Shown in pieces: positions 3,279 to 63,929 of a stretch of 64,000 bases of DNA; within the stretch, counting starts at the first letter, position 1, and each line of letters opens with the position of its first letter. The notes under the pieces are model-generated. The model saw only the letters and a list, made by a program, of their open reading frames with translations. It did not search any database and was not told the origin of the DNA. The DNA is from Cristatella mucedo (lineage: Eukaryota > Bryozoa > Phylactolaemata > Cristatellidae): assembly GCA_009760855.2 (NCBI GenBank), contig WPIO01000032.1:4324001-4388000 (forward strand), read 5' to 3'. A program made the translations under genes and the position numbers.

Positions 3279-3523
3279 ATTCTTATTTTTATTACAACAG
3301 TGCTGTGCTCCCTCCCTGCTTTCCAGCACGCCACACCCTTCAATACCCTAGCGGCCTATATTACTGGCATTCGGACTTCGATGCCAACTTATTTTCTCAA
3401 GTTAATAAAAACAGATTGGTAGTAATGGACAAACCTAGAGCTACTCAGAAATGAGAAAACCTGTCCTCAAAAAGGGCTCGGCAAGCCTGTCTCTTGTGGC
3501 ATCCAGTAACGTAAGTAAGTAAC

Positions 3524-13578: not shown

Positions 13579-13855
13579 TCAAGTTCATGTCGAATAAACA
13601 CGGTGATTTCACCCTATATTTTTCATTACGTGCGGATCCCACTTAAAAAAATTAAATAAAAATCCTTGCCCCTGCATTCAATTTTTGCAGGTTTTCCCCT
13701 TAGATGAAAATCCTTGCTCAGACACTGTAACTGAAAAAAAGAGATACAGTGCACCTACACATGTACATAAATAAACAATTTAAGTGTAGATGCACATACA
13801 CAGTAAATATTATACGTATATGGTATGCAGATATACGTATAACATGTGAATGTGC

Positions 13856-13862
<7 letters not shown>

Positions 13863-13886
<24 letters not shown>

Positions 13887-13895
13887 CGTGCGTGC

Positions 13896-13929
<34 letters not shown>
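13863..13929. repeat. (TG)n with internal (CGTG)n
   Basis: Dinucleotide run of about 65 bases broken by four cgtg units. Confidence 0.97.
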
Positions 13930-13932
<3 letters not shown>

Positions 13933-13999
13933 TTAGTATAGATGTCTATTTTTCTTCTTTCAAACATGGTATGCATGTTGTACAACCTCGCCTGGGCAG

Positions 14000-17140: not shown

Positions 17141-17217
17141 CTACGGCTTGCCCTGGTAGGGGATAGCGGCGACGACGACGATGGCCACGAAGAGCAGTGC
17201 AGCGGTGATCCACAGCG
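17141..17217 (-). CDS. stx8: stx8 exon g (membrane anchor and stop)
   Basis: 77 nt of coding sequence ending in TAG at 17143-17141. The acceptor is a pyrimidine-rich tract ending ctcgttgtag before CGCTGTGG. The first two bases complete an Ala codon begun in exon f. It encodes [18 protein letters not shown] and IPYQGKP: a single hydrophobic tail anchor with six lumenal residues. VAIVVVA is shared with human syntaxin 8 at the same place. The open frame runs further upstream into the intron, so a first-ATG ORF caller would report a misleading 86-residue protein here. Confidence 0.95.
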
Positions 17218-17748
17218 CTACAACGAGGCAGAAAGCAAACGTGCAGAGGAAGAGGCGACGAATCAGCACGAGAGAGACACGTCCTCTCTTGCCGGTCACA
17301 GCTGTGGTGAGGGGCAAGCTAGCGTGCCTCGCCTCCGGCCCCACCCGACCAGCAGAGTGCTGAATCAGGCACCTCTCGACGCCACTACCGCTGCCATCCA
17401 TCTATCGATATCAGCAGCAAGCTGTGGTCATCAACATAAGGGTCTTCAAGCTGACACGCTGAGCCAAATTGCGCTGAACTCAAGACCACGGTGGCACTGG
17501 CAGCACCTGGTGCTGCTGGGGCAACGGGATTACACACATGATGCAGAGGGTTGCTGGGATGGCCACCGTGGCAGCCCGACGGCCTCGTCGGCGCGGCGAG
17601 TGGCAAAGCACTTGTGAGGTGCAGGTTGGGCCAACGGCAGCCAGTGCTTCGGAGCGCTAGGCAAGCTACAGTGGTACACTAGCAGCTGCCTTATAAGAGC
17701 ACGTTGCACTTGCTGGCTCACATCTCTCTCTGTCTCTTTCTCTCTCTG

Positions 17749-17787
<39 letters not shown>

Positions 17788-20700
17788 TGGCAGCAACATC
17801 TCTCTGGCGAATGTAGCATTAGCCGAATCAGGCGAGAAAGGAAATGGAGAGTGCGTAATGGGGAGAGCAGGAGAGCTCACAGTGCTGGAGGTATGGAATG
17901 GCCCAGAGATAGCCCGAAGACCAGACCCTGGGTATCCAGCATCTGCTGCCATAATTCTTCAAGGCCAGAACCTCCCAGGCAGCGCGAGCAAACTTCGCTG
18001 TCAGCTTCGCACACTGCTGCACACCTCACAATGCTTGCCAAACATACTGGGCACGCCAGCCAGGGCAATACAGCCAACCAAATGAGATGTGAGCAGGCCC
18101 ACTCACACGCGAGTGTGTGCACTCTCACTTGCAAGTGAGCACGTGTGTATTGCCAGCCTTCAAGCCTATGCACGACAGCAACGCATACCGTGAGGCAACT
18201 GAGCCAACACACGAGCAGCATGCAAGCAAGTCAAACGTTTCGGCACTAACAAATTGTGCTGCAACTATAAACCCGTTTGAAATTGTTGTTGACGATAGGC
18301 CATGGATGCATTGCGATGCAGTTGGTACCCTGCAGACGTATAGCGTGGTGGCTGAGTGCACGAGTGCATGCCCACGAACGCCTGTCAGCGGCGCACGCAA
18401 GAAGTCACCCCCAACGTACAGCAGAGAGGCAAGCAAACTCTTCTGTGCCATGGAGGATCGCAGCTCGAGCGTGTCCGAGTGTTCGAACATCGAGCTGCAC
18501 ATGCCCTGTTCTTGTCCAGCAAGTCACACTTTCTGACAGTCTGCAGGAAGCGGTGCGTCTGAAAGCTGGCTGTAGCAAGTGGTCTCACGGAACTCACAGC
18601 CAGGGCAATAACTCAGAGACAGAGGCAGTGGCCTACACCCATGATAAGGGGACTGAGGGCTAATCCGGCAGTGGCGACAGCAGCAGTAGCAGTAGCAGCA
18701 TCAGCAGCAGCAGCTTGAGCTGTTCACTGATAGGGGGCGCTCAGTGTGAGCTACAACCGAGGTGCTGGTGCAGTGCACCGCCAAGGGCAAGGAGAAGGGG
18801 CCCACAGAATGTACCACTTAAATGTACAGTTGTTCACTACCAGCTCTGCAAGTGCCTGCGGCAGGGGAACACAGGGCTGGTGCAACACGTAAGCGCGCTC
18901 AGACGACGGCCTCTTTGCCGAGGCTCCGTGTTCACAAGTGTTCGAACCACACACTTCCCACGTTGCGACTCACAACGTTGCAATCTGCTGTCTCATCACT
19001 TAACACACTGATAAGTTCCAGTCGCACTTACTCCGAGACCTTTGCGATATTAGCTTAGCAAGTTGCACGTGCACCAGTGGACGTGGACGAGGCGGATGCG
19101 GCCGCATATTAGCTAGAGAAATGAGGCAGCTGCAGCTGTAGTAACCTCATGGCCGGCGCTCACGCCTGAGCGTCGGCCACGCGAGCACGTTTTAGACATC
19201 ACCTAGTGCACCGGAACCCGGCAACCGGATCCGGCTTTCTCGGTCGGAGGCTGCTAAGGTTGGCATTGGCAGTGCTTAGTCGACTACGATGGTGCAACGG
19301 GTAACAATGCAGGCTAGCAACGTTGCACTACCACGAATGGCCGCTTCAAGGAAGGAAGCCGGAAATTCGGATGCACTAACAAACTAAGCTGCAAAGGCGC
19401 TGTCAAGGCAAAGCTGCTCCACAAAGAATACATAATGGAGCGCCAGGCTTGGTGGTTGGAGGCGGGAGAATTCCACAGCAGTTGGTGAAAACTCAATAAC
19501 TAGACGCATGACGAGAACAGCACTCTTAGAAGGCACACAGCCATCAAGCAGGCGAGGAGCACATTAACCCAGCAGTATTAACCTCTCCAGAAGATACCCT
19601 CACCTCACACACTAATGGTAAGCAATTCAAATACCCGGTCCTTCCTTCGGAGGCATTTCTGCAAAAGCCCCAGCAACCGCATGATTTCCACCAGACCGCA
19701 AAGGTGCCGTGTGACACTGGAACCAGCAGGCAACGAGCCAAACTGCCCATGATTACCCGTCTTCCAAAGTCGATGCGCCTGCACTAAATGGTGGTAGTGA
19801 AAAGAAAAATGTTAAGTTACAATGTGCAAAGTCAGCATTGATGCGGCCGCACATCATCTTTCAACACTTATTGAGCTCGCCATTGCTGTTCCACCTATGC
19901 ATCTAATAGCCCCGCAAGTAAAAACGAATAAAGTGGTAGTAAAGCTTGAAGACTCACTTGGCCAGCTGGAAGCAGGAAGCAGCTGGGAAGAACGACTGGG
20001 CATTGCTTTGGGCAGCTGCTGCAAGCAATTAGCACATGTAAACCTGCTAGGAATTAGTGCCCGATCGAGCCCACCGAAGCCACAAATGGAGGCCACAGGA
20101 AAGAAATGAGCAGTCATTTCTCGGAGGCCGGCATGCAGCAATGGCCAGGCGAGATGCAGTGGCTGCGCTCAGCCGAGCCGTTGGTATTTCGACTCCCAGA
20201 TGCTCTGCCATTAACTCAGTCAACAAGAAAGCATTCACAGCATCAAACCAAGCAAACAAGATGCCTACACGTGGCGCTACAAGCAAAAGAGCCGGCTCGA
20301 TCATTGTCATAATCATCATCGGCATAATCGGGGCCTGGGAGAAGCAGCTGCATCTGCTTTTGGAAAGGGGGGATCGTGGCACAAGCAAGTGATGGACTGC
20401 GTCTCTGTCTGCCACTCCACGAAACCATGAAAACTATGTGGGTGCTATGATGGAATTTCTTTACAGCCCACACAGAGCCTAGGCAGGCTGCACGTGGTAG
20501 CCAACAGACTTAATTTCAAGCAAAAAAGAGAACGTGAAAGGCATAGACAAGTCAAAAGGTCAGCGGAGGAAGTGACTAGCATGGATGCAGCAGCTCAGAA
20601 CAGCTAGATTGGGTGGCCAGCCCCCAACCGGATGGGAAAGAGACCCCACATCGGCAGCTATCGGATTTGGGATCGAACTGGGTTATACATGTCTGGCGGC

Positions 20701-23700
20701 TGAGGCGATTTTGAGATCCAAAGAATTTTGTCCCGAGTTTGCAAATTCCCTATCAAAAGTATAATTTTATTTTCATTTCTTGGGTCACAACCTGACGGAG
20801 TCAGTAAAAACTCGAGACCTATTTTTAATAATAATAAGAATAATGATAATACACTAGATAAAGCACTCTAAGAGAATTCAATCTCTTTCTAGGCGCTTTA
20901 CATTTGCTGCAAGGGAAACACGATCGAATGGTGAGTGGTATCATGCTTGATAAACAATATGAATAAAGTGGTTAGGGGTGACATGCATAGGGTCAGCATT
21001 CAAGTGTGGTTAGAGGCAGCATGCATAATATCAGCACGCATAAAGCACATAAAGGACGAATCACAGGGAACCACGAAATGCTGCGATAAATAGGTGCGTG
21101 TTTAGTTTCTTTTTAAATGTGGTTAAGTGAAGAGACGTCGTGACGAAAGTTGGGAGTGAGTTCCAGGCATTGTGAGCATACGAACTAAAGGCACTGTCTC
21201 CAAAGGATTTGAGGTTTGTACTAGGTATAAGTAAACAGTTCGATTCCGAAAAGCTGGTGGTACGATGCTTGACCTGGTGGGGGTAGATCTGACAGGTAGG
21301 CTGGAGCCAAAGAATGAAGGGACATAAAAGTGAGAGACAAAACCTTGTGAGATGTATTTCGTGTGAGAAGTCGATGTGTTGCATGACTGGGAGGCAAAGC
21401 TGGTCAGCGAGAAGTGGTGAGATGTGGCGACTGCAACGCTCAAGACAGACAAGCCTTGCTGCAGTTTTGCACCAGCTATAAGCGCCTGATTGCACAGGCC
21501 GGTAGACCAGCAAGCAGTGAGTTACAGAAGTCAAGACAAGATGCAACAAATGCTTGGACCAATTTAGATGGGGTATCCCTGTCTAAATAAGCCAGAATTT
21601 TAGCAATGTTATGTAGCCGAAAGTAGGCAGACTTGACTGTGGAGCTGACGTGGTCGTCCAATAACATGTCATTTTTGAACATGACTTTTTTAGTGCAGCT
21701 TCAAAACAAGAGATATGCTGGCAGAGCTGTACTTGAGTGTCAGCCTTTCCAATTTCTGAATTGCCCATTGCTTGGTTTGCCCATAACTAGTAAGTTGGTT
21801 TTATTATCATTCAATTAAAGAAAATTTGCTGCCATTCATGTGCGGATGTCATCAATACATGCAGCAAGTGAGTTGAGAGAATTCGACGTGCTAGAGGGCT
21901 GGGAGGGATCAAACCAAATGTACAACTGAGTGTCATCTGTATAGAAGTGAAAGTTTAGATTGTGCTTGGCAATCACATCGGAAAGAGGGAGAGTATAAAC
22001 CATGAAAAGAACGGGAACGAGAAAGAAGCCCTGAGGTAACCCCTTATTTCAGAGGTTCCTCAGATGATCTTCGTCCATTCACATCAATAATCTGGAGTCT
22101 CCACTGAGATAGGACCGCCCACCTCAGAAAGCTTTCATGCGAATCCACCCATGAATAGCAAAGAGCGAGTTGGCATGGCAACATTGCCTTTGCAATGGGT
22201 GACATATCAGCTACTGAGTAAGCCACAGTGGGGGGGGGGGGGCACTGCCGGGCGTGTGCAGTAGTGCACGACCGAATTTCCCAAACCTGTTTAGCAGCAC
22301 AGGCACAACAATATTTGCCTTCTTACAAAGGTGAGTAAAAATAGCCTTTGAGCCACCTCAAAACAGCGCCGGCTTCACACGAACGATTCAGTTGACAGGC
22401 CATTGAAGGCCTACAGCACGGGCTTGCCCTGCAGCTGCCGGACCGAGTTTGCTAAGGTGAGGCAGCGATTTTGACATAATGATTTGATATTAGCTAAAGA
22501 GCACCTATACCCAAAGAACCAAACCAGGGTGCTGTACTAGGCATACACAGCACAGCCTTGAGCTACGCAAGTATGCACTAGCAGGTGCTAACGGCTGACG
22601 TCTGCCTGGCACTGCTCTTTGGCGTGGCACTGCTTTGGCGACGTCGGTACGATCCACGAGTCGCCTGCACACGGGATGCAGCTTTGAGCAGCTAGCGATC
22701 GATCGCACCGCTGACTCATCAGGGTCACGCTATCGATGGGAGAAGAGGAAATACCTAAACAATTCTGCAGGATGCAAAGTCACCGGCACACAGGTGCTCT
22801 ATTTCCTGCAGGCGAATAGCACGAGTAACTGCAATGGTGTGAGATCCATCAAGGTCCGTCTTCTCGAAGCTCAAAAAAAAACAACGACCACCTAGTAAAG
22901 AGGCACGGAGGGTAGGGCATATCTGTCACATTTCACAGCATGCCCACTGTATTTTCTCGAGAGAATGGACTGCAAATTTAGCTTCATCGCTGGGGGCCAT
23001 GCACTTGCAGCAAAACAAGAGCCTCTGCAGTCCATTTTTATCAGGAACGTCCAAGTGGAGAGCTGCAGAATTTTTTCGATACAACCAGCAACGCTGTTAA
23101 TATGTAGCCGACAGCTGACGTTCATGCTGCTTATCTGTGGCGGCTGAAGTTACTTAATGGAGAGACCAAGTTAAAACGAACGGGTTACCAGTCAAGAATT
23201 TTAGAGCAGGAATTAATGCTGGAGGTCGCCGATCCTCAGTGCTCCACAGTAAAGATGCTGACCAACACGGTGCAACAGAAAACACAAGTGATTCACTAGC
23301 TTTGAACGAGTGCTGCCGATGCACTGGATGCTATTCACCTCCTACATGCCGAGGCCATGAGCCAACAGATGTTAAGCATAATTACATACTCCAATGATTG
23401 ACTACAACCTCGTTGACAACTAGTTCTCAGAAAATAAAATGCCGATCAAACTGGGGAATATTCACATTGGTACAGCAAGCAAGGACATAAGCAGGCTCGG
23501 GGATCGTAAGTAAAGAGCAGAAAGGCACTATACTCATTGCAGAAGATGGCCAAGACAGTCTCAGCTCTAGGTACAATTTCTTTTTTCTCCAGCATTCAAG
23601 GCCACCACAGACAGGCTACGATTGCTCTGTATTCTGAAATATATTGCTTCAGGGTGTACTCGTCATATATTATATTTTGAGTGTATACGTGCTTACCTGT

Positions 23701-32217: not shown

Positions 32218-32285
<68 letters not shown>

Positions 32286-34404: not shown

Positions 34405-34440
<36 letters not shown>

Positions 34441-35890: not shown

Positions 35891-35924
<34 letters not shown>

Positions 35925-41900: not shown

Positions 41901-44900
41901 GCAACTGCTAAGGCTCTTCTGGTGCTCTATAAATAAGGCTATTGGTAAAGCTGACCTTAATTTTACTTCAACAGAGAAGGTGACTCAGCATCATACTTAC
42001 AAAACTCAACGACAGAATCATTTTCATCAAATTGAACACCATCACATATGTTCTCACTTTCCTTTAATAAAGATTTTGCTACATTACGAAAGAGCTGCAA
42101 GATTGTCAGAATTATTAGGGCAGGCTGACCAGCTAGGTCAGCGGACACTCAGGCCCACCTCCTTCGACCTCTAAAATCGAAGGCTAATACTAGAGCACAG
42201 AAACGTCTCTTTGTGAATGCACACATTGATAGATCGGAACGGAAGTCATATTCTGTGGCTACTTTCCCGAGTCAGAGCCAGAGCATTTTAAATAGGCCAC
42301 ACAATAAAAGACGATCTGAAGCCAAGCTGGGCATGACCATAGTTGTATTCCTGCTGCCCGCATGGGTGCAGCTAGCTGCATGGACCAAAGCAACAAATCT
42401 TAAGTCCAAGTCCATTGTGTGCAGTAAAAAACTCAGACTGGTCACTATGAGAGATACATAATGATACTAAACAGGAAATAAATACTGAGACAGTTGATGT
42501 ACAATGACTGTTAACACGGAAACAGCACCAGCTTATAAGAACCGGCTGGGTCCGACAGCCAATTTTGTGTAATTTTTTGTCTATGCAAGCAGTCACACAT
42601 TTTATTATTTGATCTAAAAACTTCTGCTCAATGGCAATAGAAAGAATTAATATCAAGGACATAGTAAAGTCTTTCCATATTACTAACTGGGCACGTAACA
42701 ATTTTAAAGACCAACTAACAGGACAATTATGAACCAATATCACGATCATAGCAAGACGTGCTAGGTAGTTAAATATTATTTACAGGAAGCTATTTAAAGT
42801 TCGTCTGAATGCATGAATCAACAATACTTGCAACACAAACATACAGAGAAAGTGCAAAAAGGGCAAAATAATTTGCTAAGCTTATATGGAAATAACAAAA
42901 TATGTATAGGAATGAGCTAAAGAAGCAAAGAGCACTACAGGCAGACAAATGTTCTATCGAATACAGCTTCTTGAGTCAAGCAGTTCGCATGTCTTTTCAC
43001 CTGCAGCTGCAAGTCCCGGTTTTGATTGCCTGCTTTTCGTTACTAGCCCTGCTTGTATGGGGTTTAAAACACAGTTTCCAAGCAAAAGGATGCTCGATTC
43101 AACAGGGCGACATGATCTCATATAGTCATCAACTAGAAGCATTCTACAGCTTGCCATTGGCTATAAAAACGGCTGCCTGCAATTGATAAGGTGAACGCTT
43201 TGTTTACACAATCTGTTTACTACAAATACTGGTGGGTGTGAAGGCACATCATCTTTCAAAGAACCAAGCTGTTTCAGATGGTTGTTTACCCTCAGGCAAG
43301 TATACGTTCCATATCTGCAAATGGTTTGCTGATGCACTACTGCAAGAATATTCTCAGATACTCATGTAAGTTTTACTAGAGAGTGCATCCCAGCGAATTT
43401 AGGTATATAGTGACGATAGTTTACTATGCCAGCTACACATATCAGGTGCCGATGGGGGCCACAAATATGTCAGCTCCAAAATGCTTGCATACAAACGGCA
43501 GTGCTGCAGCCATGCCATGCAGGCCAACGAGTACCATATCGTAAAGACACCGAAGGCAACGAAGGAAGCAGCAGTCGCCAGGATGGCTAAATATTAGAGT
43601 AGGCACCCCCATTAGCACTGATTGGCTTTCACGGGAATGCAAGACCAACCGTTTGGGTAAGTGAGCATGTAAGCATGGATGTGGGGAGTTTCCATGCAGT
43701 GATCACCCCAGTTTTGAATTATTTACATGGATGCACTTTGAGCTTCATTTAGTGCAATGACCACATCTTTGGGCCTTTTTCAGTCTTTTACTAAAGCTAA
43801 ACAAGAGTCAGACTATGAAGTGAATGTTCCAAAATATACACTCTAAAATCCTAGGTTATTTCATCAAACAGATGCACGAGCTTTCTCTGAAAATAAATCC
43901 TATCAAGTCACACATTTGAGCCTCCACCGCAAAAAAAAAACATTCCATAAGCAGTGCAAGCTGGTCGTGCACTGTTACTTATATCGTATCGGCCAGTTGT
44001 TGCTTGGGCGATCAAGAAAATCGATGCACAATTGTAATGTTGGCCACATGCAGAAATAGTATTTTGCAATAGTAACTGTTAGTGCTAGCAGCCCTAGCCT
44101 TGGCCATGAGTAATATGAATGACAGGGCATTCCATAACATGTTCGTGGGCAGAACATACAGCATTAGAAAAATCAGCAAAAACACAAGTCTAGACGTCTG
44201 CTCTCATCAAGTTAGTCAGCAGCTGTGCAAGGATGCAAAGATATACCATCCTGTCGGTCGATTTCACGTCCTATATCAAGGCCCATCTGTTTCTGCCTTG
44301 CGACAGCCTCGGCCAGCATATCAAGGCCCTCATCTTGTTCTAAAATGAAAGATCAGCTGGTGAATACAAAGCCCACTGGTTAACATAAATATGCCATCTG
44401 CTGACTACCTTGCCCTTTTGAGGGTTCGGTATGGCACTGAAGCTACTCTATATAGCATGGAGTTGTGAGACGTAAGAACGATGACGAACACAAAAATGTA
44501 CTCATCTGCTGCATAACAGGATTTACATCGTCCAACACCTAAAATGACTGGCCCGTTTCTAGAATAAAACGCATCCGCATGGCCAGGAGTATTCAACTCA
44601 CGGGATACCATAGTCTGTTGATGTTTCCGCATGTCATCAATCGACATGTCAGCAGCTCTGGCTTCAGCATCATTATCGTCATCACCATGGAAATTCGTTC
44701 TGCGAGAGGTGCCCAGCAATATAGACCTACACATGCAGATGTATGGCCACATGTACCTGTACCAGAGGTTCTATACATAAATGTGACTGCTTAGCACAGC
44801 AATATCAAATAGTCCAGCCATCCGACTCACCGTCCAGCTGACGCCGTGTGATCACTGAACATTTCATCGATCTGCTTTTCTTTGCTGGCAAGCCCGTCAA

Positions 44901-50900: not shown

Positions 50901-53900
50901 GAAATATTTCACAGGTAGCTATATAAGGTAATGAAAACTTCCCACACTATGAAAAGTAATGAAGACGTACAAGATTTGAACTCCAGAATAACTGCTCTAG
51001 CTTTGGAATGGTACTCCAGAACGCCAATTTCAAGTAGGAAACTGATAGCTTATGCAATTCCACTTACAGATGTGAACTAGCAGCAGTCCTAGCATGCAGC
51101 CTCTTCAGATGGATCAGCTGCGATGAGAGAAGTCGCATTCCTCCTTTAATATCAGCTGATAGCTGAAAATTATGACATGCAACAAGCTCTAAACAACAGC
51201 TATAAAATGAGCCGCAGAAACTTAATAATAAAAATAATAATAACACATTTGATAGAGCACCCTCTGAGAACTAAATCTCGTTCTAGGCACTTTACATTTG
51301 GTGCAAAGGAAGCACGATCGAATGGTTAGTGGAAGCATGCTTAATAAACAACAAGAATAACATGGCTAGGAGTAACATGCACAGGGTCAGCATGCAAGTA
51401 AGGTTAGTGGCAGCAGACACAGTGTCAGCATGCATAAGCACATACAGGACGAATCACAGGGACCCACTAAATGCTGTGATAAATAGGTGCGCTTTTAGTT
51501 TCTTTTTAAATGTGAACAAGTCAGGAGATGTCGTGACAAGTCGGGAGTGAGTTCCAGGCTTTGGGAGCGTACAAACTAAAGGTACATTCCCCAAAGGATT
51601 TGAGGTTTGTATGAGGTATGGGTTAACAGTTAGATTCCGAAAAGTGGGTGGTACGATGCTTAGCCTGGTGGGGCAGTAGACCTGATAAGTAGGCTGGAGC
51701 CAAAGAATGAAGGGACCTGAAAGTGAGTGACACAGCCTTGAAGTCGATGCATTGCTTGACTGGTAGCCAGTTCGGGTCGGCGAGAAGTGGCGTGATGTGG
51801 CAACTGCGACGCTCACGAAAGACAAGTCTAGCTACTGAGTTTTGCACCAGCTGTAAGCACCTGATTGCACAGGCCGGTAGATCAGCCACTTGCACAATTC
51901 AAAGTCAAGGATGTTGCAAGACCTCAGGCTGTGTGTAAACGATACAACTAAATCAGAGTTCGTGCTCAGGCGATGGGCGATGCAGAGCATGAGGATGCTA
52001 GAGGCTAGAAAGCTATTAGACTAAAAGAAGAAACTAAGAAATCATCTACAGATGCTACAGAAGCTAGAAATCCATCTATTAATCACAAACATCCTCAGTT
52101 GTTCTAGTCAATTAGTTAGAAGACAGGTAACTGACCCATTCTGCTCTAGTTTCTTAACGAGCGCACTGCCTTTGATGGCAAACCGGAAACCTCCATTCAG
52201 TTTACAGAGCAAACGAGAGAGCAGCTACAGGCCTAATAACAATAAGAATACATTTGTATAGCACCCTCAGCAAACTTAATTTCTTTCTAGGCACTTTACA
52301 TGTTGTAAAGGACTCACGACCGAATGGTTAGTGTAGCATGGTCAATGTCAGCAGGCATAATATGATTACGGGTGACATGCACAGAGTCAACATGCAAGCA
52401 TGGTTAGTGGCAGAATGCACAATGTCAGCATGCATAATCACACGAAAGATAAGATAACGACACACTAAATGCTGTGATAAAACAGGTGCATTATTGTTTC
52501 TTTTTAATGTCGTCAGGTCAGGGGATGTGGCGTCAGTCGGGAGCAAGTTCCAGGCTTTGGGAGCATACGAACTAAAGGCATAGACATACTTTTTTTTACC
52601 TGCTTTGTGTGTAGGTTTAAACGATTACCTCGTAAATCATCTGAGCAAGCATATATATGCATGTCATTTCAATTTATTGTGCAATTGATCTGCTGGGTTA
52701 CGTTAACAACACTTGGTTAAGCAGCACTCACGAACAATGGTTAAACAGACAAGGGTAATTGCACACACCCATACCACTACAAGTCGGGAGTGAGTTCAAG
52801 GCTTTGGGAGCACATAAACTAAAGGCACGGTCTCCAAATGATTTGAGGTTTGTAGGAGGTACATGTAAACAGTTAGATTCGAAAAAGCAGGTGGTACGAT
52901 GCTTAGCCTGGTGAGGGAGTAGATCTGGAAGGTAGGCAGGAGCCAAAGAATTAAGGGAACTAAAAGTGAGCGACAAAACCTTGAAGTCGATCTGTTGTTT
53001 GACTATGAGCCAGTGCAGGTCGGCTGTGTGCAAGTGCTGTGATGTGGCAACCTCGACGCTCACGACAGACAAGCCTAACTGCAGAGTTCTGCACCTGCTG
53101 TAAGCCCCTGATTGCACAGGCCGGTAGGCCAGCAAGCAGTGAGTTACAGAAGTTAAGACCGGATGTCACAAATGTATGGACCAACTTAGATGTGGTATCC
53201 CTATCAAAACAAGCCCGAATTTTAGCAACGTTATGTAGCTGAAAGTAGGCAGACATGATTGTGGAGCTGGTGGTCGCCCAATGAAAGGTCACTTTGGAAC
53301 ATGACACCTAGATTTCGTGCAGATTCAACAGGCAATATGCTGGCAGAGCCGATTTTGAGCGTTAGCCTTTCCAATTTCTGAATCACACTTGGTTTGCCCA
53401 TAACTAGTAAGCTAGTTTTATCATCATTCAATTTAAGAAAATTTGCTGCCATCCATGTGTGGATGTCATCAATACATGTAGCAAGGGAGTTAAGAGAATT
53501 CGACATGCTCGAGGGCTGGTTAGCGGAAACCTGGCCTTTGACTTAACTTAAGAGCACCCGGAGCACCCTGAACTGATTTCTGTGCTCTAGAAAGCCCTTT
53601 AGTAAGGGGCTCACAGATTAGAACTTGCTGTATCTGTAAAAGTATGATTGCCAAATTCAGAAAAGTCTGCAGGTGATTCAACGATTTCCTGGCATACTGC
53701 CCAGAAAAATCTATACTAATCTAGTGTCCAGGCTTAAAATGGCCAGCTGTCCCACAATGAAGCACTAAAGATAGTCTCGGCCAGATGGCTTACCATAAAG
53801 CTAGAGGGCCATGGAACAAACCAGGACTTGAAATTAAAAAAACAACGAAAGCCAATCAGCTCTTGCCAGATCAGCTCGATTTGTACGAATTGTCGAATTG

Positions 53901-56900
53901 TTGCATGCATCCTGATGGGTGCTGAAATTTTGCACATTATCACTAAGAACTATTTGGTAGGCATCTGTTCCAGCAAATGTAGAGTGCCTAGAAAGGGATG
54001 TAGTTCCCCTGGGCTGCTGTACAAGTTTTCTTATTATTAACATTATTATTAGCATTTAACTAAAACGCTCGAGATTGAAGTTGGAGTAAACACTTTTGAC
54101 TGGGTTGTGGGAAAATGCCGAAGGTGTAATTAGAAAGTCTCATGAGCAAGATCAAAATTCAGAGACCGTGGCTGTCAAGGTTAGCAGGTCTACCAACAAA
54201 AGATCGGTTCTGTCATTATTTAGTTTCAAGAGATTTGATGGCAGCTAGCAACGAGTCTCCGAGACACGAATTTAAGCATTGAATCACAGTATCAAAATTC
54301 CTGGGATAAAAGACAGAAAGTCACTTATCGTGATCATACAAAATATCGGAGGCTTCGAGACAAAGTATTCTTCCCAAAAAGTGAGCGTCCATAAAACCAG
54401 AATGAAGACAAAAAGCCTTCTGGACGTCAATAAGCTTTCTTGACGCAATCGGGATATGGATATAACCGTATGCTATATTTCAATCTATCGCTAAGGCTTT
54501 CAAAAATGCCTAATGCAGTTATCTTAGAATCACGTAAAACTTAAAATCACCCTGGAAGAAATCTAGCACACAGCTCAATACCAATTAGGAGCACAGTGGA
54601 TGCTGTCTTGTGACTAAAATCGTGACGTTACGGCGCTTAAGATGATCTTCTAGTACTCAGACTATCAGGTAGAACTACCTTGGAGACAGCCAACAACCTT
54701 GCATTGGAGGCAAGAGGGTTTGAAAATGTCACCATAGCAATACCAGTTAGGGGCCGTCCGTTTGCTGGGTAGCATAGAGAAGACTACCTGCAGAACCAGG
54801 ATTCAGCCTAAACAACGAATCTTTTCTCATAAAAGGTGTTCTTAATTTTCTATGGTATCGTGACAGTTTCAAGCACAAGGAACATGCCATTCGTTTACTG
54901 TTTTTCTTATATTCCTTCTAATAAGTTAATAGTTTTCATACTGCTCATTATGAGTAATTTTATTCATTAGAAGTTTCTCGAGCTTCACTGAATTGAATGT
55001 GAGTAGTTTTTTCTCATCAAGACACTTCACTCTTCCAAGCAAATACAGTGATTGATGCCACTGATCTTCAATTCGTTGGCTAACGATTTCACTTAGATAG
55101 TTAGATTAGTGTAAATGTCTGCTGGACTGTTGAGATCCTTAGGATATGATTGAAATAAATGAGACACGAACACTGCTATTTACTTTCCGCATAAAAAGAA
55201 GAAATAATTGAAGAAACAGCCATACTATGATACAAGATACTAAACTTGGAAATTTCTGTCAGGAAAAATTCTAAACAAAACAAAAAGTCCTGCCAAACGA
55301 ATGCATAAATGAATAACAACATTGGCTATAAGGCAGGTAAGTTGGTGAGTGCTATGAGCGCTTTAATGGCACATTGACTTCTTATTCGGAGTATGTACTA
55401 ACGTTATAAGAGAACACGTACATTCAGCACGAGTCTAATTCACACCATATTCTCCTGTTACAATCCCGGTCAATCATTCTGATGCTCTTTGCACCTAACC
55501 GCCTATCAGGCTGATGGCATCAATTAGATTCATCTCTCGAATCGGTGAGGAAACTTCAATTCAAGTCGACGTTCAGTACTGATGTTAATTAGTTTGTGGG
55601 CACCAAACTTACCGATGCTACGAGCCTGAATTACCGGTTGAAGAGACCTGCACATTAAGGCATCAACGGCTGCCCACCAAACACGAACTACTAGATAACA
55701 GGCCTGCTAGACCAGGCTGATCATTGCATGACATTGACTGCACTTGGTCGTCCTGAGACGATTCGAAGACAACAGAGAATGACCTACTATTTGCCAATAC
55801 CTCATCTCGTTGCTTCACAATGCTAGTTTGATATGCTACCGGTTAAACTCAACAGGTAAGTTAGCTTACAATCTAGCAAAGAGCCCTTCCTTGGTACATG
55901 GCTGGAAACGAGTATGCTGCCGCTGGGACTTAACCTATGGGTAAGATGCTTGTTCTTCACGAACCAGGTCGTGGGTTCGAGTCCTGCGTTGGGCGATCCT
56001 TTACTGCCCAATACAAGATGTGGTGCATGAAGAGAATGCATGCACACAAATGCACACAGTCACACAACCAACAACGATACACATACGCCCCCACAAATAC
56101 AAATAGATCACGCCGAATCCTGGCTGTTTGACCTAATAATAATAATAATAATATTGCACTTGATAAAGCGCCCTCAGAGAACTTAATCTCTTTCTAGGCG
56201 CTTTACATTTGCTGCAAAGTGATACGCAATAGAATAGTAAGTAAAATCATGCTTGAAAAACAAACAAAATGAATAACATGGTTAGGGGTTACATGCACTG
56301 GGTCAGCATGCAAATGTGGTTAGTGGCAGCATGAACAGTGTCAGCACCATAAGCACATCGAGGACGAATCACAAGGACCCACTAAATGCTGTCCTAAATA
56401 GGTATGTTTTTAAGTTTCTTTTAAATGTGGTCAGGTCAGGGGATGTTCTGATGCAGGTCGGGAGGGAGTTCCAGGCTGTGGGAGCATACGAGCTAAATGC
56501 ACGGTCTCCAAAGGATTTAAGGTTTGTACGAGGTATTTCTAGACTGTTGGATTCCGAAAAGCGAGTGGTACGATGCTTTGCGTGATGGGGTAGTATCTCT
56601 GAAAGATAGGCTGGAGCCATAGAATGAAGAGACCTAAAAGTGAGCGACAAAACCTTGAAGTCAATCCGTTGCTTGACTGGTAAGCAGTGCAGGTCGGCGA
56701 GAAGTGGAGTAATGTGGCAACTGCGACGCTCACGACAGACAAGCCTAGCTGCAGAGTTTTGCACCAGCTGCAATCGCCTGATCGTACATGCTGGTAGGCC
56801 AGTAAGCAGTGAGTTGCAGAAGTCGAGACGAGATGTCACGAATGCATGGACCAACTTGGACGTGGTATCCTTATCTAAACAAGCCCTAATTTTAGCAATG

Positions 56901-58095
56901 TTATGAAGCTGAAAATAGGCTGATTTGACTGTGGAGCTGATGTGGTCGTCTAACGAGAGGTCGCTTTGGAATATGACACCTAGATTTCGAGCTGATGCAA
57001 CTGGAGATATGCTGGCAGAGCCAATTTTGAAAGTCAGCCTTTCCAATTTCTGAATAACACTAGGTTTGCCCATAACTAGTAAGTTAGTTTTTATCATCGT
57101 TTAGTTTTAGAAAATTTGCTGCCATCCATGATCGGATGTCATCAACGCATGCAGCAAGTGAGTTGAGAGAATTTGAGGTGCTCGAAGGCTGGGAGGGATC
57201 AAAGCAAAGGTACAACTGAGTGTCATCCGCATAGAAGTGAAAGCCTAGATTGTGCTTGGCAATCACATCAGCAAGAGGGAGAGTATAAACGGTGAAAAGG
57301 ACCGGACCTAGCACAGAGCCCTGAGGTACTCCATATTTTAGAGGTACTTCAGATGATCTTTGTCCATTCACGTCAACACTCTGGAGTCTCCCACTGAGAT
57401 AGGACCTGAACCACTGCAGAGCAGTGCCAGTGATGCCCAGGCGAGATGAGAGGCGCTCTAGAAGTACTTTGTGATCGATGGTATCAAAAGCTGCCGAAAG
57501 ATCGAGCAAAACAAGAAGAGACACTCTACCCATGTCTGCATTCCTAAGTAGGTCGTTGTATACCCGAAGCAATGCTGACTCTGTGGAGTGATTAGCTCTA
57601 AAGCCAGACTGGAACTTACTAGCAAGGTGTGAGGTTTCGATATACGACCTCGTACGAACAACATATGCCTCTCGAAGTTACACTTGTACAGCCAATCAAG
57701 TACATGTTAAGTGATAATCCCCAACAAGATGGAAGCATAAGAGCCAGATGAATAATAAATGTTTTGAATGTGCTCCGAGATTCTAAACATTACACGGGAG
57801 CATGATGCGACTTTAGCTCTGAAGCAGAGATATTCATTTAAGATATTGATGTAAGAAGCTATAAGCCCTGCTAAATCCTTTCTTCTAAATTTTTCACAGG
57901 AGCAAGGGTCTCTTTCTCTCTATATCTACATATCTAAATTTATATATATCTATCGCCCTCATCATGTTCACGGGTGTGGGGTGCTGGCATTACTAAAGAA
58001 AAGCACAAGTTGTTTCGGTGTTTTTTCCTATATTTTGAGACAGATCCAGATGCATCGATCTAATAATAACACATGTGAATAACCCGCAAGAGAAC

Positions 58096-58132
<37 letters not shown>

Positions 58133-61100: not shown

Positions 61101-63929
61101 AACAGTCTACGGCTGCCAACATTTACACCTATTTGGATTCCAGTGGTGCTATCAACATGGCCACACAATCAAGCAATCAGCCAATGAACTCGACAGGTGC
61201 AGTAGTCAATGGCTGGCCATCAGTTATCAGCTTCTGGCTGAGGTTTCTGATTGTGACTTCAGGTCTGCTAGACCGGTTGAAGCCGGGCTGCAGAAGGCCA
61301 CACAGAAGACAGACTACGAACAATAATAAACTGAAAAAATATAGATAGTCATTGCACTACTACAAAGACATCTAGTAGCCATAAAGAAGCAGCCGTCTAA
61401 AAACACTCATCCCTCAGGGCCGCAGTAAGCTGCTCAAAAAGTGACTTGAACAGCTGCTCATTCTTTACTATGAGACAGGTTCAGGAAAGCCATAAGATAT
61501 GTATTTCAAGTTGCTCTAACATACAAAGCAAAATAAGAAATCCCAAAAGGCAGCCATAGAGAAGGTGGATCATCATAGTGCGGTGGCACCGAATAGGCAA
61601 AGACATGCATGCCCCTATTTGATGGTTCTTGCATCTTCTTGTTTCCCCCTTGCTTTTCCTTCCGATTCTGACGTCATGCTGACTCCGTTTATCACAACTA
61701 CCGATACTTAACAACCGGAGGTTAGCTGTTGGTTTGCTTTAGCAAGTTGTCCGGAATCAGCTTAAAATTAATGTAAACCACTTGCACAGACTAGTTGCTA
61801 TGATGTCCTTAATGCTTACAGCCACAAGCCACAAGGATGCTGCGAATAATGCTAAGCGGATCAAGATCCGTATCCGGCCAACAACCGAATTTGTGCAGCC
61901 TTATATAAACACCATACAGTTACATAGAGGTGTGCTAGCAAGGTAGAACACAATTCTCGCAGTCTGTGATAATACTACAATTAATAAGACATTTGAATAG
62001 TGCTCTCGGAGAACTAAAACGTTCTGGGCACTTTACCAATAATGTAAGGGAAGCATGTCAAAATGGTGAGTGACAACGTTCACGGTGTCAGCACGCATAA
62101 CCATTCAAAGGACACTTAAAAAAGAACCCAGCAATTGATGTGAGGAAAAAGTGAGTTTTTAGCTTCTGTTTAAATGTCGTCAAGTCAGGGTATGTCGTGA
62201 CATCAGTCAGGAGTGAGTTCCAGACTTTGAGAGCACATGAACTAGATAGATAAAGGCAAGGTCTCGAAAGAATTCAAGGTTGGTATGTGGTACAGCTAAA
62301 CGACTTGAGTACACAAATTGGCCTAATTGGGAAGCAGTTTTGAGAGGTTGGCTACAGCAAGAGAATGAAAGGACCTAAAAGTGTGCGATAAAAGCTTGTA
62401 GTCGATATGCTGCTTGATTAGAAGCCAGTGCAGGTCGACAAAAAGTGGTGCAATGTGGCAACTGCGACCCTCACGACAGAAAGGCCTAGCTGCAGAGTTT
62501 TTCACCAACTGGAAGCACCTGATTGCATACGCCGGTAGACCAGCAGAAGTCGAGATGAGATATGACAAATGCAAGGACCAACTTGGATGTGGTATCCATG
62601 TCTAGGCAGGTCAAATTTTCGCAAAGTTACATAGCTGAAAGTAGGCAGATTATACTATGGAGCTAATGCTGCCGTTTAGTGTCACCTCGGAACAGGACTC
62701 CCAGATTACATGCAGATGCTACAGGAGATATGCTGGTTATTAGCCTCTTCGGTAGCAGCCTCTTTTACATTGCAGCAGAAGAGCCTTAACGGCTATCCCC
62801 ACTACCTGCAGTGGGCAATAAGAGATTGCCCGCTTCAGGACTCAAACCCATGACATAGCAGGCAAAGGGCAAGGAGAGAGCTTGGGAGATAAAAAAAATG
62901 AACCATGGCTGTTGCTGTTCCTGTTTCGCACATTGGCTAGCAAGCACGAGGCCCAGAATTGCAAGGACACAACATGTAAAGAATGATCGTGCAGCCTTCG
63001 AGTATTAATCGGACTAGCTCATTATCATGTCGACAGTGACGATACCTGCTAGACCTGACACACCGGGAGTTGCAGGCCCAACAGGGAAGTCGTATCAGTG
63101 CCAACTGGAGCAAGCTGGCACTGCATACATCTCATTCACTGCTAGCTTGGGAGCAATACAGAGTGCACGAATCAATAGAAGGCTTGTAGCTGCTCGCCTT
63201 CAAACAAGTTTGACGGCTTCCACGATTGCCTCTTAGACTGTACCAGTGACGATACCTGCTAGACCTGACACACCGGGAGTTGCAGGCCAAACAGGGAAGT
63301 CGTATCAGTGCCAACTGGAGCAAGCTGGCACTGCATACATCTCATTCACTGCTAGCTTGGGAGCAATACAGAGTGCACGAATCAATAGAAGGCTTGTAGC
63401 TGCTCGCCTTCAAACAAGTTTGACGGCTTCCACGATTGCCTCTTAGACTCAGCAGTCCATCTGCACGGATCACAGTAGTCATACCAATAGGATTTTGGCC
63501 AAAATCCACGGAATCTCAGCCAATAATGCAAAACCTTACAAGTAGTTTGCACAATATTTAACTAATCGTGCAGACCTGACACCCACCGTGTACTTGCCAT
63601 GCTTCATGTTAAATCAATGCACATTGGTCATCAAGATTTTTAACGGCACTGTGTTTGCAGCAGCAATTCAAGTACAATGCTATGAGGATTTTTGAGTCCA
63701 GCGGTGGCGGTAGTAGTGGCAGAGGGGGAGGGGCGCCTGGGGTGGGGGAGAGAAGAGAAGTCTGGCTCCCAAAATGAAGCGATTCTACAATCGTATACAA
63801 AACACAATGCTTGCTATCTCACATACCCGAATGTAATTGCTGCTCGCATGGTCAGCATTCTTGTTCCTCTCATTGACTTTTTCTATCAAATCTTGCGCAA
63901 CTGCAGAACAAGCTTCGTAGTCTTTTTGC
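17141..63929 (-). CDS. stx8: Syntaxin-8 (endosomal Qc-SNARE), 7 exons, 5' end outside window
   Basis: Spliced gene join(63929-63827, 51162-51068, 44935-44831, 44726-44602, 44339-44247, 37967-37860, 17217-17141), read on the minus strand. The 706 nt encode 234 residues plus a TAG stop; human STX8 has 236 in all. Seen: every intron is GT-AG and all phases agree. The product has an N-terminal helical region, an acidic linker (HGDDDND), a SNARE motif beginning at [15 protein letters not shown] with zero-layer Q in DRQDEIIDDL, and a C-terminal anchor ending [18 protein letters not shown]. Known of the family: syntaxin 8 pairs with syntaxin 7, Vti1b and VAMP8 to fuse late endosomes. Inference: the start codon and first few residues lie in an exon right of the window. 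Identity rests on recognising motifs, not on a search, but phase agreement at six junctions makes it very secure. Confidence 0.95.
17723..17784. repeat. (CT)n microsatellite
   Basis: tctctgtctctttctc repeats leading into pure TC. Confidence 0.95.
20826..22125 (-). mobile_element. Long LINE copy with decayed reverse transcriptase
   Basis: From the (ATT)n tail through the hairpin (agcactctaagagaattcaatctc) to the reverse transcriptase core. The minus strand at about 21930-21955 encodes [11 protein letters not shown] in place of the usual FYADDTQLY. Upstream are [20 protein letters not shown]-like residues. Many stops and frameshifts; about 1.3 kb, 5'-truncated. Confidence 0.85.
23704..23812 (+). 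mobile_element. tRNA-derived SINE, type 2 fragment
   Basis: cagcccatgggtaaggcaca box A region and cctgggtttgagacctgcag (decayed box B), then aatcttttattggccactgc. Confidence 0.65.
23816..23925 (-). mobile_element. LINE 3' tail
   Basis: (ATA)n, acactcagagaacttaatcc and the tgcactttacat end. Confidence 0.7.
24045..24125 (+). repeat. Fragment of ATTAC-tailed retroelement family
   Basis: cctttccagttgtcctgagc and tgctacttccatactgcata match 38625-38670 and 41115-41160. Confidence 0.6.
24114..25043 (+). other. 309-codon open frame in stx8 intron, function unknown
   Basis: Longest open frame in the window, but the first ATG is at codon 91 (24384). The product has no recognisable domain, and a SINE fragment (24722-24781) is read through in frame, which argues against a conserved protein. 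Most likely a chance frame in G/C-biased, TA-poor DNA. A non-coding transcript cannot be excluded. Confidence 0.2.
24722..24781 (-). mobile_element. SINE type 2 head fragment
   Basis: aaaggattgcttgctgcagt then actcgaaaccacgacccagg: the box B half in reverse. Confidence 0.55.
25190..25365 (+). mobile_element. LINE 3' tail and a short upstream-type fragment
   Basis: aacaaagtgcctagaaataa...agttctcccagagg is the decayed hairpin. At 25290-25360 a separate piece encodes [21 protein letters not shown]-like residues of the reverse transcriptase C-terminal region. Confidence 0.6.
25375..26830 (-). mobile_element. LINE copy, diverged subfamily
   Basis: Minus strand from an A/T-rich tail through decayed ORF segments to reverse transcriptase pieces: [31 protein letters not shown] and [27 protein letters not shown] matches the [10 protein letters not shown] motif of the best copy. 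Frameshifted throughout. Confidence 0.8.
26865..26950 (-). mobile_element. LINE or SINE tail fragment
   Basis: tgtatagcaccctaaaataa and cctctattcaggtgcatcac: the tail shared by the LINE-tailed SINE and its LINE. No tRNA head. Confidence 0.6.
27050..27635. repeat. Long inverted repeat (fold-back element?)
   Basis: gggtacctttcaaaagaaaa at 27102-27121 continuing to catgttggaa is matched inverted by ttccaacacgtttgtcttta...ggtaccc at 27552-27581. Similarity extends outward to an agaaaatatt/agtattttct pair. Arms about 30-80 bases, spacer about 420. Confidence 0.55.
28735..29005 (+). mobile_element. LINE 3' fragment
   Basis: [20 protein letters not shown] is the end of the LINE ORF (compare [17 protein letters not shown]). 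Then the 3' UTR and tctaaagggcctagagagat. Confidence 0.7.
29540..29972. mobile_element. hAT-like MITE, 433 bp
   Basis: Imperfect terminal inverted repeats tagagctgtaccaaata / reverse of tttagtacagcccta, with internal attcggccgaat and gccgaataccgaatag motifs common in hAT elements of this sort. Flanks CAATTAAG and CAATTGAC (29532-29539, 29973-29980) match at 6 of 8, as expected for an 8-bp target-site duplication. It carries no intact transposase; a short minus-strand frame with an ICSMCGDHF motif may be a remnant. Confidence 0.75.
30130..31330 (-). pseudogene. Broken copy of an uncharacterised repetitive protein family
   Basis: Three collinear minus-strand pieces: [18 protein letters not shown] (about 31095-31150), [18 protein letters not shown] with [10 protein letters not shown] and [10 protein letters not shown] (30510-30730), and [18 protein letters not shown] with [10 protein letters not shown] and [13 protein letters not shown] (30134-30335). 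From memory this order resembles a multicopy uncharacterised protein seen in many arthropod and fish genomes (motifs such as FPCYLCLW and EQGERFHQDI). I do not know its function. Frames are interrupted by stops and shifts, so it is dead. Family name uncertain. Confidence 0.55.
31335..32160. other. A/T-rich intron sequence, no recognised feature
   Basis: Low G+C and no frames of note. Confidence 0.6.
32169..32281. repeat. Compound microsatellite (TATG)n-(TA)n
   Basis: About 14 TATG units followed by about 30 TA units. Open frames here are Tyr/Ile or Tyr/Val artefacts. Confidence 0.97.
32700..32790. repeat. G/C-rich segment with nested inverted repeats
   Basis: gggtctgggggcagagcccc, poly-C, then gggggtctgggggcatcccc: two versions of one palindromic unit separated by about 25 bases. 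Both strands have G runs that could form quadruplexes. Confidence 0.8.
33085..33807 (-). mobile_element. LINE inserted into the Tc1-like transposase
   Basis: 5'-truncated copy. On the minus strand: LVRKxx-type reverse transcriptase C-terminus ([54 protein letters not shown]), 3' UTR, hairpin and (ATT)n tail. Flanked by ttata on both sides (33080-33084, 33808-33812), a probable short target-site duplication. Confidence 0.88.
34340..34440 (+). mobile_element. LINE 3' tail
   Basis: gtaaagcgcctagaaagaga, ttacgttctctaagggcgct and (ATT)n, a well-preserved hairpin. Only the tail is present, inserted in the Tc1-like relic. Confidence 0.85.
34735..37850. other. Intron sequence, no recognised gene
   Basis: Includes ctcag pentamers (34837-34860), the (CA)n block at 35731-35940, and a poly-C run at 37399-37411. 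Frames at 34732-35127 and 36433-36849 have no recognisable domain. Confidence 0.5.
35731..35940. repeat. (CA)n with CCGG/CTGG-interrupted units
   Basis: Runs of CA separated by ccggcaca or ctggcaca units, with a minisatellite-like period of 12-14 bases in 35838-35895. Confidence 0.95.
37860..37967 (-). CDS. stx8: stx8 exon f (C-terminal half of SNARE motif)
   Basis: 108 nt, acceptor tgtttgttacag|AG, donor AATTGCG|gtaagtca, a near-consensus donor. The incoming AG completes a Glu codon. It encodes [18 protein letters not shown] and [25 protein letters not shown] followed by RNETRRV is the equivalent vertebrate pattern, and the final Cys just before the membrane anchor is also found there. The exon is isolated: 6.3 kb from exon e and 20.6 kb from the last coding exon. 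Confidence 0.95.
38285..38870 (+). mobile_element. L2-like LINE 3' end, second family (ATTAC tail)
   Basis: Decayed C-terminal region [18 protein letters not shown], then [18 protein letters not shown], then a 3' part with ggctttgagtgggctataca, an L2-like end signature, closing in tacacattacattac. Distinct from the (ATT)n family. The last 230 bases match 41090-41350. Confidence 0.7.
39560..40345 (+). mobile_element. LINE 3' fragment
   Basis: Begins in the [21 protein letters not shown] segment, continues through [19 protein letters not shown], then 3' UTR, gtaaagcacctatagagaga...gatggcagcat and (ATT)n. Confidence 0.8.
40346..40980 (+). mobile_element. LINE 3' fragment, second copy in tandem
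   Basis: [20 protein letters not shown] opens the fragment and [16 protein letters not shown] closes the ORF; 3' UTR to ctacacagagacagggttct. It sits directly after the (ATT)n of the previous copy. Confidence 0.75.
41065..41350 (+). mobile_element. ATTAC-tailed retroelement fragment
   Basis: cagcggccctgagctgctac, gctactcactacctcaactt, ctttgttgcgtgagac and a cattacattac end. About 80% like 38610-38870 by eye. Confidence 0.65.
41810..41940 (+). mobile_element. SINE type 2, decayed
   Basis: acccgtgggttaaagtcatg (box B relic), gtaggcaatcctacagtgcc, and the aaggctcttctggtgctcta body. Confidence 0.6.
41950..44246. other. Intron sequence, no recognised feature
   Basis: Only short frames, no repeat family recognised. 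Poly-A at 43930-43940. Confidence 0.5.
44247..44339 (-). CDS. stx8: stx8 exon e (N-terminal half of SNARE motif)
   Basis: 93 nt, acceptor ttcattttag|AACAAG, donor CAGGATG|gtatatc. It encodes [18 protein letters not shown] and [12 protein letters not shown]. This is the most conserved exon: RQKQMG is identical to the vertebrate protein. The Gln in DRQD, codon at 44251-44253, sits at the position of the Qc zero-layer glutamine that joins the ionic layer of the four-helix SNARE bundle. The codon lies only four bases from the donor, so the zero layer coincides almost exactly with an exon boundary. Confidence 0.96.
44602..44726 (-). CDS. stx8: stx8 exon d (linker)
   Basis: 125 nt, acceptor catgtgtag|G, donor ATCCC|gtgagttg. 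It encodes [18 protein letters not shown] followed by [23 protein letters not shown]. This is the variable acidic linker between the helical bundle and the SNARE motif. The end, with [15 protein letters not shown], aligns with the FDEIRQQQQKIIQ segment just before the SNARE helix. The last base C joins AA of exon e to give Gln. The linker is strongly diverged from vertebrates, which fits an invertebrate source. Confidence 0.92.
44831..44935 (-). CDS. stx8: stx8 exon c (third N-terminal helix)
   Basis: 105 nt, acceptor tcgtgcag|G, donor GGACG|gtgagtcgg. The incoming G completes the Leu codon of exon b, and the outgoing CG is completed by G of exon d as Arg. It encodes [18 protein letters not shown] and [16 protein letters not shown]. 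The [10 protein letters not shown] stretch corresponds closely to GDRRQNLLDDL of human syntaxin 8. It sits 104 bases from exon d, the shortest intron of the gene. Confidence 0.93.
45590..45672 (-). mobile_element. LINE 3' tail
   Basis: aataataatgcacttgatga, agtgccctcagagaactcaa and ctttctaggcactttacatt. Confidence 0.8.
45880..46009 (-). mobile_element. tRNA-headed SINE with LINE-like tail (best copy)
   Basis: Minus strand: ggtttggcccagcggttaag (box A TGGCCCAGCGG), ggtgctcgccccgattaagg, then gaggtcgtgggctcgagccc (box B region), then ccgtggcatatgtgaaacgc and ctgaatggagattattttct...agggtgctatacag. The last part is the same hairpin design as the LINE 3' end. Confidence 0.9.
46010..46158 (-). mobile_element. 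SINE type 2, abutting another SINE
   Basis: Minus strand: gggttcgagtcctgctatgg (box B), ttgcccactgcaattggttg body and aaggctcttctactgctacg. It ends at the head of the preceding SINE. Confidence 0.8.
46690..47335 (-). mobile_element. LINE 3' fragment
   Basis: (ATT)n tail, ccctcagaaaacttaatctc, 3' UTR, then ORF pieces [18 protein letters not shown] and [18 protein letters not shown] (frame-shifted relatives of the conserved [14 protein letters not shown] region). Confidence 0.8.
48340..48471 (-). mobile_element. tRNA-headed SINE, LINE-tailed type
   Basis: ttggtctagcggttaaggtg head, gaggtcgtgggctcgagtct box B region, cgcctgaatagagattaagt tail. Confidence 0.85.
48683..48705. repeat. (CTA)n microsatellite
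   Basis: Seven to eight CTA units. Confidence 0.95.
48855..49570 (+). mobile_element. Diverged LINE 3' fragment
   Basis: [17 protein letters not shown]-like start, then SFSGIGHQ-type region with [18 protein letters not shown] and [18 protein letters not shown], relatives of [19 protein letters not shown]. Ends before an (ATT)n run near 49557. Confidence 0.65.
49975..50130 (+). mobile_element. tRNA-derived SINE, type 2 (best copy)
   Basis: tRNA-like head 49983-50047: gcccat pairs with gtgggc to form most of an acceptor stem, box A region gcccatgggtaaggtgctcg, perfect box B GGTTCGAGTCC at 50026-50036. The body atcctttattgagcactgta and ggctcttgtgctgctataca follows. The anticodon arm is not canonical, so not a functional tRNA. 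Confidence 0.85.
50700..50862 (+). mobile_element. tRNA-derived SINE, type 2 (gacggcacacta head)
   Basis: atccgtgacggcacactagg head and box B GGTTCGAATCC, then tgcggtgggcgatcctttat and ttctgccgctatacaaaaga. Nearest relative is 3110-3278. Confidence 0.85.
51068..51162 (-). CDS. stx8: stx8 exon b (second N-terminal helix)
   Basis: 95 nt, entering in phase 0 after aattttcag and leaving after two bases of a Leu codon (CT|gtaagtgg, completed by G in the next exon). It encodes [19 protein letters not shown] and then [12 protein letters not shown]. The spacing of Leu and Ile, and the position just before the TQREAERRQ segment, match the IRALLQNLKEKI...LLLRAVSTHQ helix of vertebrate syntaxin 8. This is the least conserved exon by eye. 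Splice sites and phase on both sides support it. A cag|ctgat alternative acceptor seven bases downstream would break the phase. Confidence 0.85.
51225..51905 (-). mobile_element. LINE close upstream of stx8 exon b
   Basis: Tail (aataataaaaataataataa), accctctgagaactaaatct hairpin, 3' UTR, and the ORF C-terminus ([54 protein letters not shown]). On the stx8 strand it ends about 60 bases before the acceptor at 51163. Confidence 0.88.
52233..52580 (-). mobile_element. LINE 3' end fragment
   Basis: Tail, gcaccctcagcaaacttaat, 3' UTR with gcatggttagtggcagaatg repeats, up to gcatacgaactaaaggca. Confidence 0.8.
52778..53520 (-). mobile_element. LINE fragment with reverse transcriptase C-terminus
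   Basis: Residues [54 protein letters not shown] and [18 protein letters not shown]. It overlaps the consensus range of 52233-52580, so the two are separate insertions or a rearranged copy. Confidence 0.83.
53950..54055 (+). mobile_element. LINE 3' tail
   Basis: gcaaatgtagagtgcctaga, aagggatgtagttcccctgg and an (ATT)n tail. Confidence 0.75.
54060..55920. other. Intron sequence, no recognised feature
   Basis: A/T-rich, with no frames above 60 codons and no repeat family recognised. Confidence 0.6.
55929..56012 (+). mobile_element. tRNA-derived SINE, type 2 head
   Basis: acttaacctatgggtaagat box A region, box B GGTTCGAGTCC at about 55976-55986, tgcgttgggcgatcctttac. Body truncated after atacaagatg. 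Confidence 0.8.
56140..57690 (-). mobile_element. Best-preserved L2/CR1-like LINE, reverse transcriptase
   Basis: Non-LTR retrotransposon. Two overlapping minus-strand frames: 57572-57084 encodes [31 protein letters not shown] and FYADDTQLY, the catalytic reverse transcriptase block; 57097-56369 continues from [17 protein letters not shown] to [18 protein letters not shown] and [14 protein letters not shown]. One frameshift near 57090, in [16 protein letters not shown], separates them. 3' UTR carries AAAGCGCC (56165-56172) pairing with GGCGCTTT (56197-56204), inner AGAGA/TCTCT, then an (ATT)n tail. The endonuclease part is missing: 5'-truncated near 57690. Serves as the reference for the other copies. 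Confidence 0.93.
58060..60200 (-). mobile_element. Degraded LINE(s), diverged subfamily
   Basis: Tail-like aataacacatgtgaataacc then (AT)n (58099-58130). The ORF end region (agtcggaagtgatttccagg) is at 58300, [18 protein letters not shown] and [15 protein letters not shown] at 59150-59250, and reverse transcriptase [18 protein letters not shown] plus [13 protein letters not shown] at 59836-60000. A DDTQLY-equivalent is decayed (YVHDTRLY). Two or more insertions may be joined. Confidence 0.72.
58099..58130. repeat. (AT)n microsatellite
   Basis: About 16 AT units inside the LINE 3' UTR region. Confidence 0.95.
60200..61980. other. Intron sequence, no recognised gene
   Basis: The 60890-61348 plus-strand frame (152 codons) includes a Gly/Pro-rich [18 protein letters not shown] stretch but no domain I recognise; a complementary frame is equally open, so coding status is doubtful. 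Confidence 0.4.
61985..62745 (-). mobile_element. LINE 3' fragment
   Basis: Tail, gtgctctcggagaactaaaa, 3' UTR, then [36 protein letters not shown] and [18 protein letters not shown]. Confidence 0.83.
62755..62870 (-). mobile_element. SINE type 2
   Basis: Minus strand: gggtttgagtcctgaagcgg (box B), caatctcttattgcccactg and aaggctcttctgctgcaatg. Confidence 0.78.
63034..63449. repeat. 210-bp perfect-period tandem duplication
   Basis: Copies 63034-63243 and 63244-63449 differ at about one internal base (gcaggcccaac versus gcaggccaaac) and at the edges. Each holds one open frame of the same sequence: [13 protein letters not shown](P/Q)TGKS, then [18 protein letters not shown] and more, ending TIAS-stop. 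Only the first has an ATG (63027). No family recognised. It lies about 380 bases from stx8 exon a. Confidence 0.97.
63827..63929 (-). CDS. stx8: stx8 exon a (N-terminal helix)
   Basis: 103 nt. The acceptor tract is ttgatttgtag before GCAAAAAGAC; the donor is CGG|gtatgtgag. The exon begins with the third base of a codon and ends in phase 0. It encodes 34 residues, [18 protein letters not shown] followed by [16 protein letters not shown]. This aligns with the first helix of animal syntaxin 8, where an IAQEI...QRN pattern follows the N-terminal tyrosine. About ten residues, including the initiator Met, must lie upstream outside the window. It is the rightmost exon and is separated from the next by 12.7 kb. 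Confidence 0.9.

Follow-up and report, generated by a model that had tools for sequence, protein, structure and literature searches.

Syntaxin 8 has been described as a Qc-SNARE that takes part in endosomal trafficking, and a di-leucine-based motif is mentioned for STX8 (PMC4340400). In fission yeast, a second study describes Schizosaccharomyces pombe Fsv1/Stx8 as a syntaxin-8 homologue that acts at the prevacuolar endosome in the fusion of vesicles, with 18% identity to human syntaxin 8 (PMC8041195). We analysed a 64,000-nucleotide stretch of the genome of the bryozoan Cristatella mucedo, referred to here as the window (contig C255, 4324001-4388000; the assembly comprises 572 Mb in 688 contigs). 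Judged from its sequence, the window very probably holds a single-copy, apparently intact animal syntaxin-8 gene, an orthologue of the late-endosomal Qc-SNARE.

On the minus strand, seven exons lying between 63929 and 17141 are separated by six GT-AG introns and keep the reading frame when spliced. With a candidate start exon beyond the window, counted here as exon 1, the full model has eight exons over about 49 kb and seven GT-AG introns of 131 to 20,642 bases, with phase continuous throughout; the joined coding sequence of 693 bases encodes 230 residues and a stop, with no internal stops. In order from the 63929 end, exon 2 (63929-63827; 103 bases, phase 2 in and phase 0 out, AG acceptor and GTATGT donor) would encode the first N-terminal helix, exon 3 (51162-51068; 95 bases, phase 0 to 2) the second and exon 4 (44935-44831; 105 bases) the third. 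Exon 5 (44699-44602; 98 bases) carries the acidic linker and the approach to the SNARE motif, the two halves of which are encoded by exon 6 (44339-44247; 93 bases) and exon 7 (37967-37860; 108 bases, GTAAGT donor), and exon 8 (17217-17141; 77 bases, phase-1 AG acceptor) provides the membrane anchor and the stop codon TAG. A single poly(A)-like signal occurs within 1.6 kb of the stop, at a distance of 1.3 kb, which counts against the gene model.

A first-pass annotation of this DNA had proposed the seven exons, their strand and outer coordinates, the six GT-AG introns and the phase, and joining the exons bears all of these out. Its range of exon sizes, 77-125 bases, is correct at the lower bound but too generous at the upper, the measured range being 77-108 bases (a longer version of exon 3, with its acceptor at 51186, would have 119 bases and has a poor acceptor score). 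The sequence features on which it had based the gene's identity are all present in the joined protein: RQKQMG (44281-44298), DRQDEIIDDL, which spans a phase-1 exon junction, an acidic linker (GDDDNDAEA) and the anchor stretch VAIVVVA (AIVVV at 17171-17185). It was also right that no exon is a long open reading frame, as the frames surrounding the seven in-window exons extend for only 39-121 aa. The implied surprise of a gene hidden among repeats is not supported, since small exons and long introns that hold repeats are normal for an animal and common among animals; this is an ordinary orthologue with a housekeeping role, and genes built in this way are what splice-aware annotation is designed for.

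Most of the exons were located by tblastn, using as the query a working version of the human syntaxin 8 sequence (hereafter the working human sequence). Amid many noise matches, the minus strand gave colinear matches at 63919 (E = 0.34), 44934 (E = 0.012), 44647 (16.9 bits, E = 38), 44346 (57% over 35 aa, E = 1e-7), 37968 (E = 0.007) and 17197 (E = 4.1). This protein-to-genome alignment, which the first-pass annotation had suggested as a check, recovered exon 2 and exons 4 to 8 in colinear order but gave no match for exon 3, the candidate second-helix exon and the most divergent of the gene. Taken singly, three of the six matches (63919, 17197 and 44647) are not significant, and we accepted them because order, phase and splice sites carry them; splice sites and phase likewise place exon 4. 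The best colinear one-strand chain, in which only matches of at least 19 bits were used and each was counted as its bits minus 15, scored 69.4 in the real window and a mean of 10.9 (maximum 22.7) in dinucleotide-preserving shuffles (n = 200). Five of the seven in-window exons enter this chain; the remaining two are too weak to do so.

Residues 3-225 of the 230-residue joined protein align with the working human sequence, with 76 of 237 columns identical, and this alignment takes in the region before the SNARE motif, where syntaxin 8 would have its N-terminal three-helix region. The C-terminal membrane anchor, delimited by eye, comes right after the SNARE motif and ends five residues from the C terminus. 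Within the motif, EIDRQDEIIDDL of the joined protein aligns with ELDEQNEIIDDL of syntaxin 8, and the glutamine taken to be that of the central layer in Q-SNAREs is present. The Pfam SNARE model (PF05739) had no match in the joined protein, which hit only two irrelevant families (E = 0.14 and 0.19), and in a genome search the model marked five places on other contigs, with the syntaxin-8 gene not among them. This miss says little and is not diagnostic, because the syntaxin-8 motif of solved structure itself falls below the PF05739 cut-off (12.2 versus 26.8 bits).

Comparison with solved structures bears on whether the gene could encode a different Q-SNARE, of the SNAP-29, SNAP-25 or syntaxin 6 type. 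All three of these match weakly (E from 0.005 to 0.3), with 20.1 bits (E = 0.0052) for SNAP-29 and 14.4 bits (E = 0.29) for syntaxin 6, but syntaxin 8 itself (1gl2_D) reaches 49.2 bits (E = 6.2e-12), 29 bits ahead of the next listed SNARE, in agreement with the identity given in the first-pass annotation. The second half of the SNARE motif, in exon 7, aligns with 1gl2_D, and the RQKQMG-bearing stretch of exon 6 matches that chain on its own (E = 4.3e-7). A single SNARE motif and a membrane anchor distinguish the joined protein from SNAP-25 and SNAP-29, in which two such motifs occur and an anchor is lacking; that it belongs to one of these other types is a reading to which we give almost no credence. 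We also consider it very improbable that the locus is a decayed syntaxin-8 pseudogene with a working copy elsewhere. Such a reading draws on the fact that the gene is known here from sequence alone, but its eight exons are open and its seven introns are all GT-AG, whereas a retrocopy would be intronless. A whole-genome search with the joined protein returned, among the best candidates scored, eight matches, namely the seven larger exons and one elsewhere (contig C66, 4527437-4527601; residues 143-197, 25% identity, E = 0.158), which probably belongs to the SNARE motif of a different Q-SNARE. When the three clustered exons were searched as DNA against the genome, they had no match but themselves among the best candidates scored, and protein and DNA searches of the 572-Mb assembly, again with the best candidates scored, found no second syntaxin-8 copy. 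Open exons and intact introns, with no second copy found, make both a pseudogene and a retrocopy appear unlikely.

A further alternative is that the gene is real but one or two junctions are wrong, either because a different exon, such as 45138-45089, encodes the second helix or because the start lies elsewhere. The phases of the neighbouring exons require the missing exon to start in phase 0 and to end in phase 2. In a phase and splice scan with candidates ordered by their splice scores, 51162-51068 stood fifth of 634 and was picked by eye. With this choice made, its end-anchored similarity to the helix of the working human sequence was set against that of 5138 phase-matched background candidates (GT donors, 50-150 bases), which came from the plus strand in full, from the minus strand below position 44000 and, on each strand, from three further stretches (L001, L002 and L012). 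None of the 5138 attained its similarity, and 40 attained its splice score. It also has a GTAAGT donor and the best combined score among 498 intron candidates, with an overlapping version that has a worse acceptor (51186) lying one point above it on similarity alone. In favour of 45138-45089, this segment gives the best local alignment, with ends free, to the helix of the working human sequence, scoring 38 compared with 29 for 51162-51068 and 30 for longer versions of the latter. We rejected it as the second helix: its donor is weak (1.2 bits), stops lie behind it, it is missing from the eight highest end-anchored scores, and the helix would lose more than ten residues. A different start is given some room by the little sequence that the start exon offers. 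Overall, we regard wrong junctions of this kind as unlikely, and retain 51162-51068 as exon 3.

Under the retained model, the likeliest candidate for the missing start is a 14-base exon, 66084-66071 (ATG GCC GAC ACA TG), which lies outside the window, 2.1 kb beyond exon 2, and splices in phase to 63929; this placement rests on position, phase and the letters MA-D-W. It gives MADTW before QKDYEACS, against MAPDPWFSTYDS in the working human sequence. The 20 kb past the window edge hold 25 start-exon candidates that pass the donor threshold, and one of these is an extended form of the 14-base exon that begins at an upstream in-frame ATG (MYRTHLPPPKMADTW). Preference for 66084-66071 was decided by eye, from its likeness to MAPDPW of the working human sequence and its nearness, and the start exon is the least certain part of the gene model. 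The earlier description of the gene as complete but for its start fits a likely start exon at this position outside the window.

The introns and flanks hold other features. An open frame on the minus strand at 57087-57677 matches reverse transcriptase (PF00078, E = 1.1e-23) and is a LINE-like retrotransposon fragment inside an intron of the syntaxin-8 gene. Similar-looking fragments were noted by eye at 56369-57100, 52728-53165 and 21061-21582; Pfam searches of the first and the last of these gave no match. The intron after exon 63929-63827 contains two 210-base tandem copies (63034-63449) that are 99% identical, which would stem either from duplication in the very recent past or from the assembly itself. 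On the plus strand, a 211-residue open frame at 14251-14883 has a match to the MIOS alpha-solenoid (E = 0.013; 15.5 bits versus a cut-off of 27) that is probably noise. Rfam and tRNA scans of the window returned nothing, and a search of the window and 20 kb upstream for CFAP52, which we take to be the head-to-head neighbour of human STX8, gave nothing above noise (best E = 1.5).

Elsewhere in the assembly, contig C688 is mitochondrial (21,008 bases, of which 20,000 were examined) and has genes on both strands, with COX1 called by Pfam and the others by eye. Its gene order (nad1-nad6-cob-nad4L-nad4-nad5) is suggestive of a lophotrochozoan, and perhaps of a mollusc. One stretch of this contig is present three times, in both orientations (joined coordinates 3139-3366 plus, 11631-11858 minus and 13746-13973 minus), and a tRNA scan of the examined sequence with the bacterial code found nothing. 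Five partial COX1-like stretches on contigs C166, C83, C549 and C299 all have internal TGA, and some also have TAA or TAG. Internal TGA is to be expected under the mitochondrial code, but these copies, which are partial and lie on contigs other than C688, resemble mitochondrial DNA inserted into the nuclear genome.

If it behaves as other members of its family do, the joined protein would be the Qc helix of the late-endosomal SNARE bundle, would contribute a single glutamine to the central layer and would help late endosomes and lysosomes to fuse with one another. The partners of syntaxin 8 are syntaxin 7, Vti1b and VAMP8. The value of the model lies in annotation, as it supplies exon bounds; among the exons so defined, one is divergent and another, the probable start exon, has 14 bases, and automated tools could overlook both. 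It also indicates that raw sequence allows a low-identity split gene to be read correctly.

Compared with syntaxin 8 as represented by 1gl2 chain D and the working human sequence, the bryozoan protein shares RQKQMG and EIIDDL in the SNARE motif, an alignable N-terminal region, an acidic linker and the VAIVVVA anchor, and it is of similar length (230 residues here versus 236 in the working human sequence). It differs in having 32% identity to the working human sequence and a shorter linker. At the place of human DRRQNLL it has ERRQSLL, so that a leucine-based stretch is kept, whereas KEKQIDEMF stands where the working human sequence has RERLLLASF, and this second leucine-rich stretch is not kept. 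Both human stretches presumably act as sorting signals. We suggest, tentatively and with considerable doubt, that syntaxin 8 in this animal may have kept one leucine-based sorting signal and lost the other, and that its endosomal route may differ from that in mammals. Like S. pombe Fsv1/Stx8, which acts at the prevacuolar endosome according to the study cited above (PMC8041195), it is very probably a member of the syntaxin-8 family.
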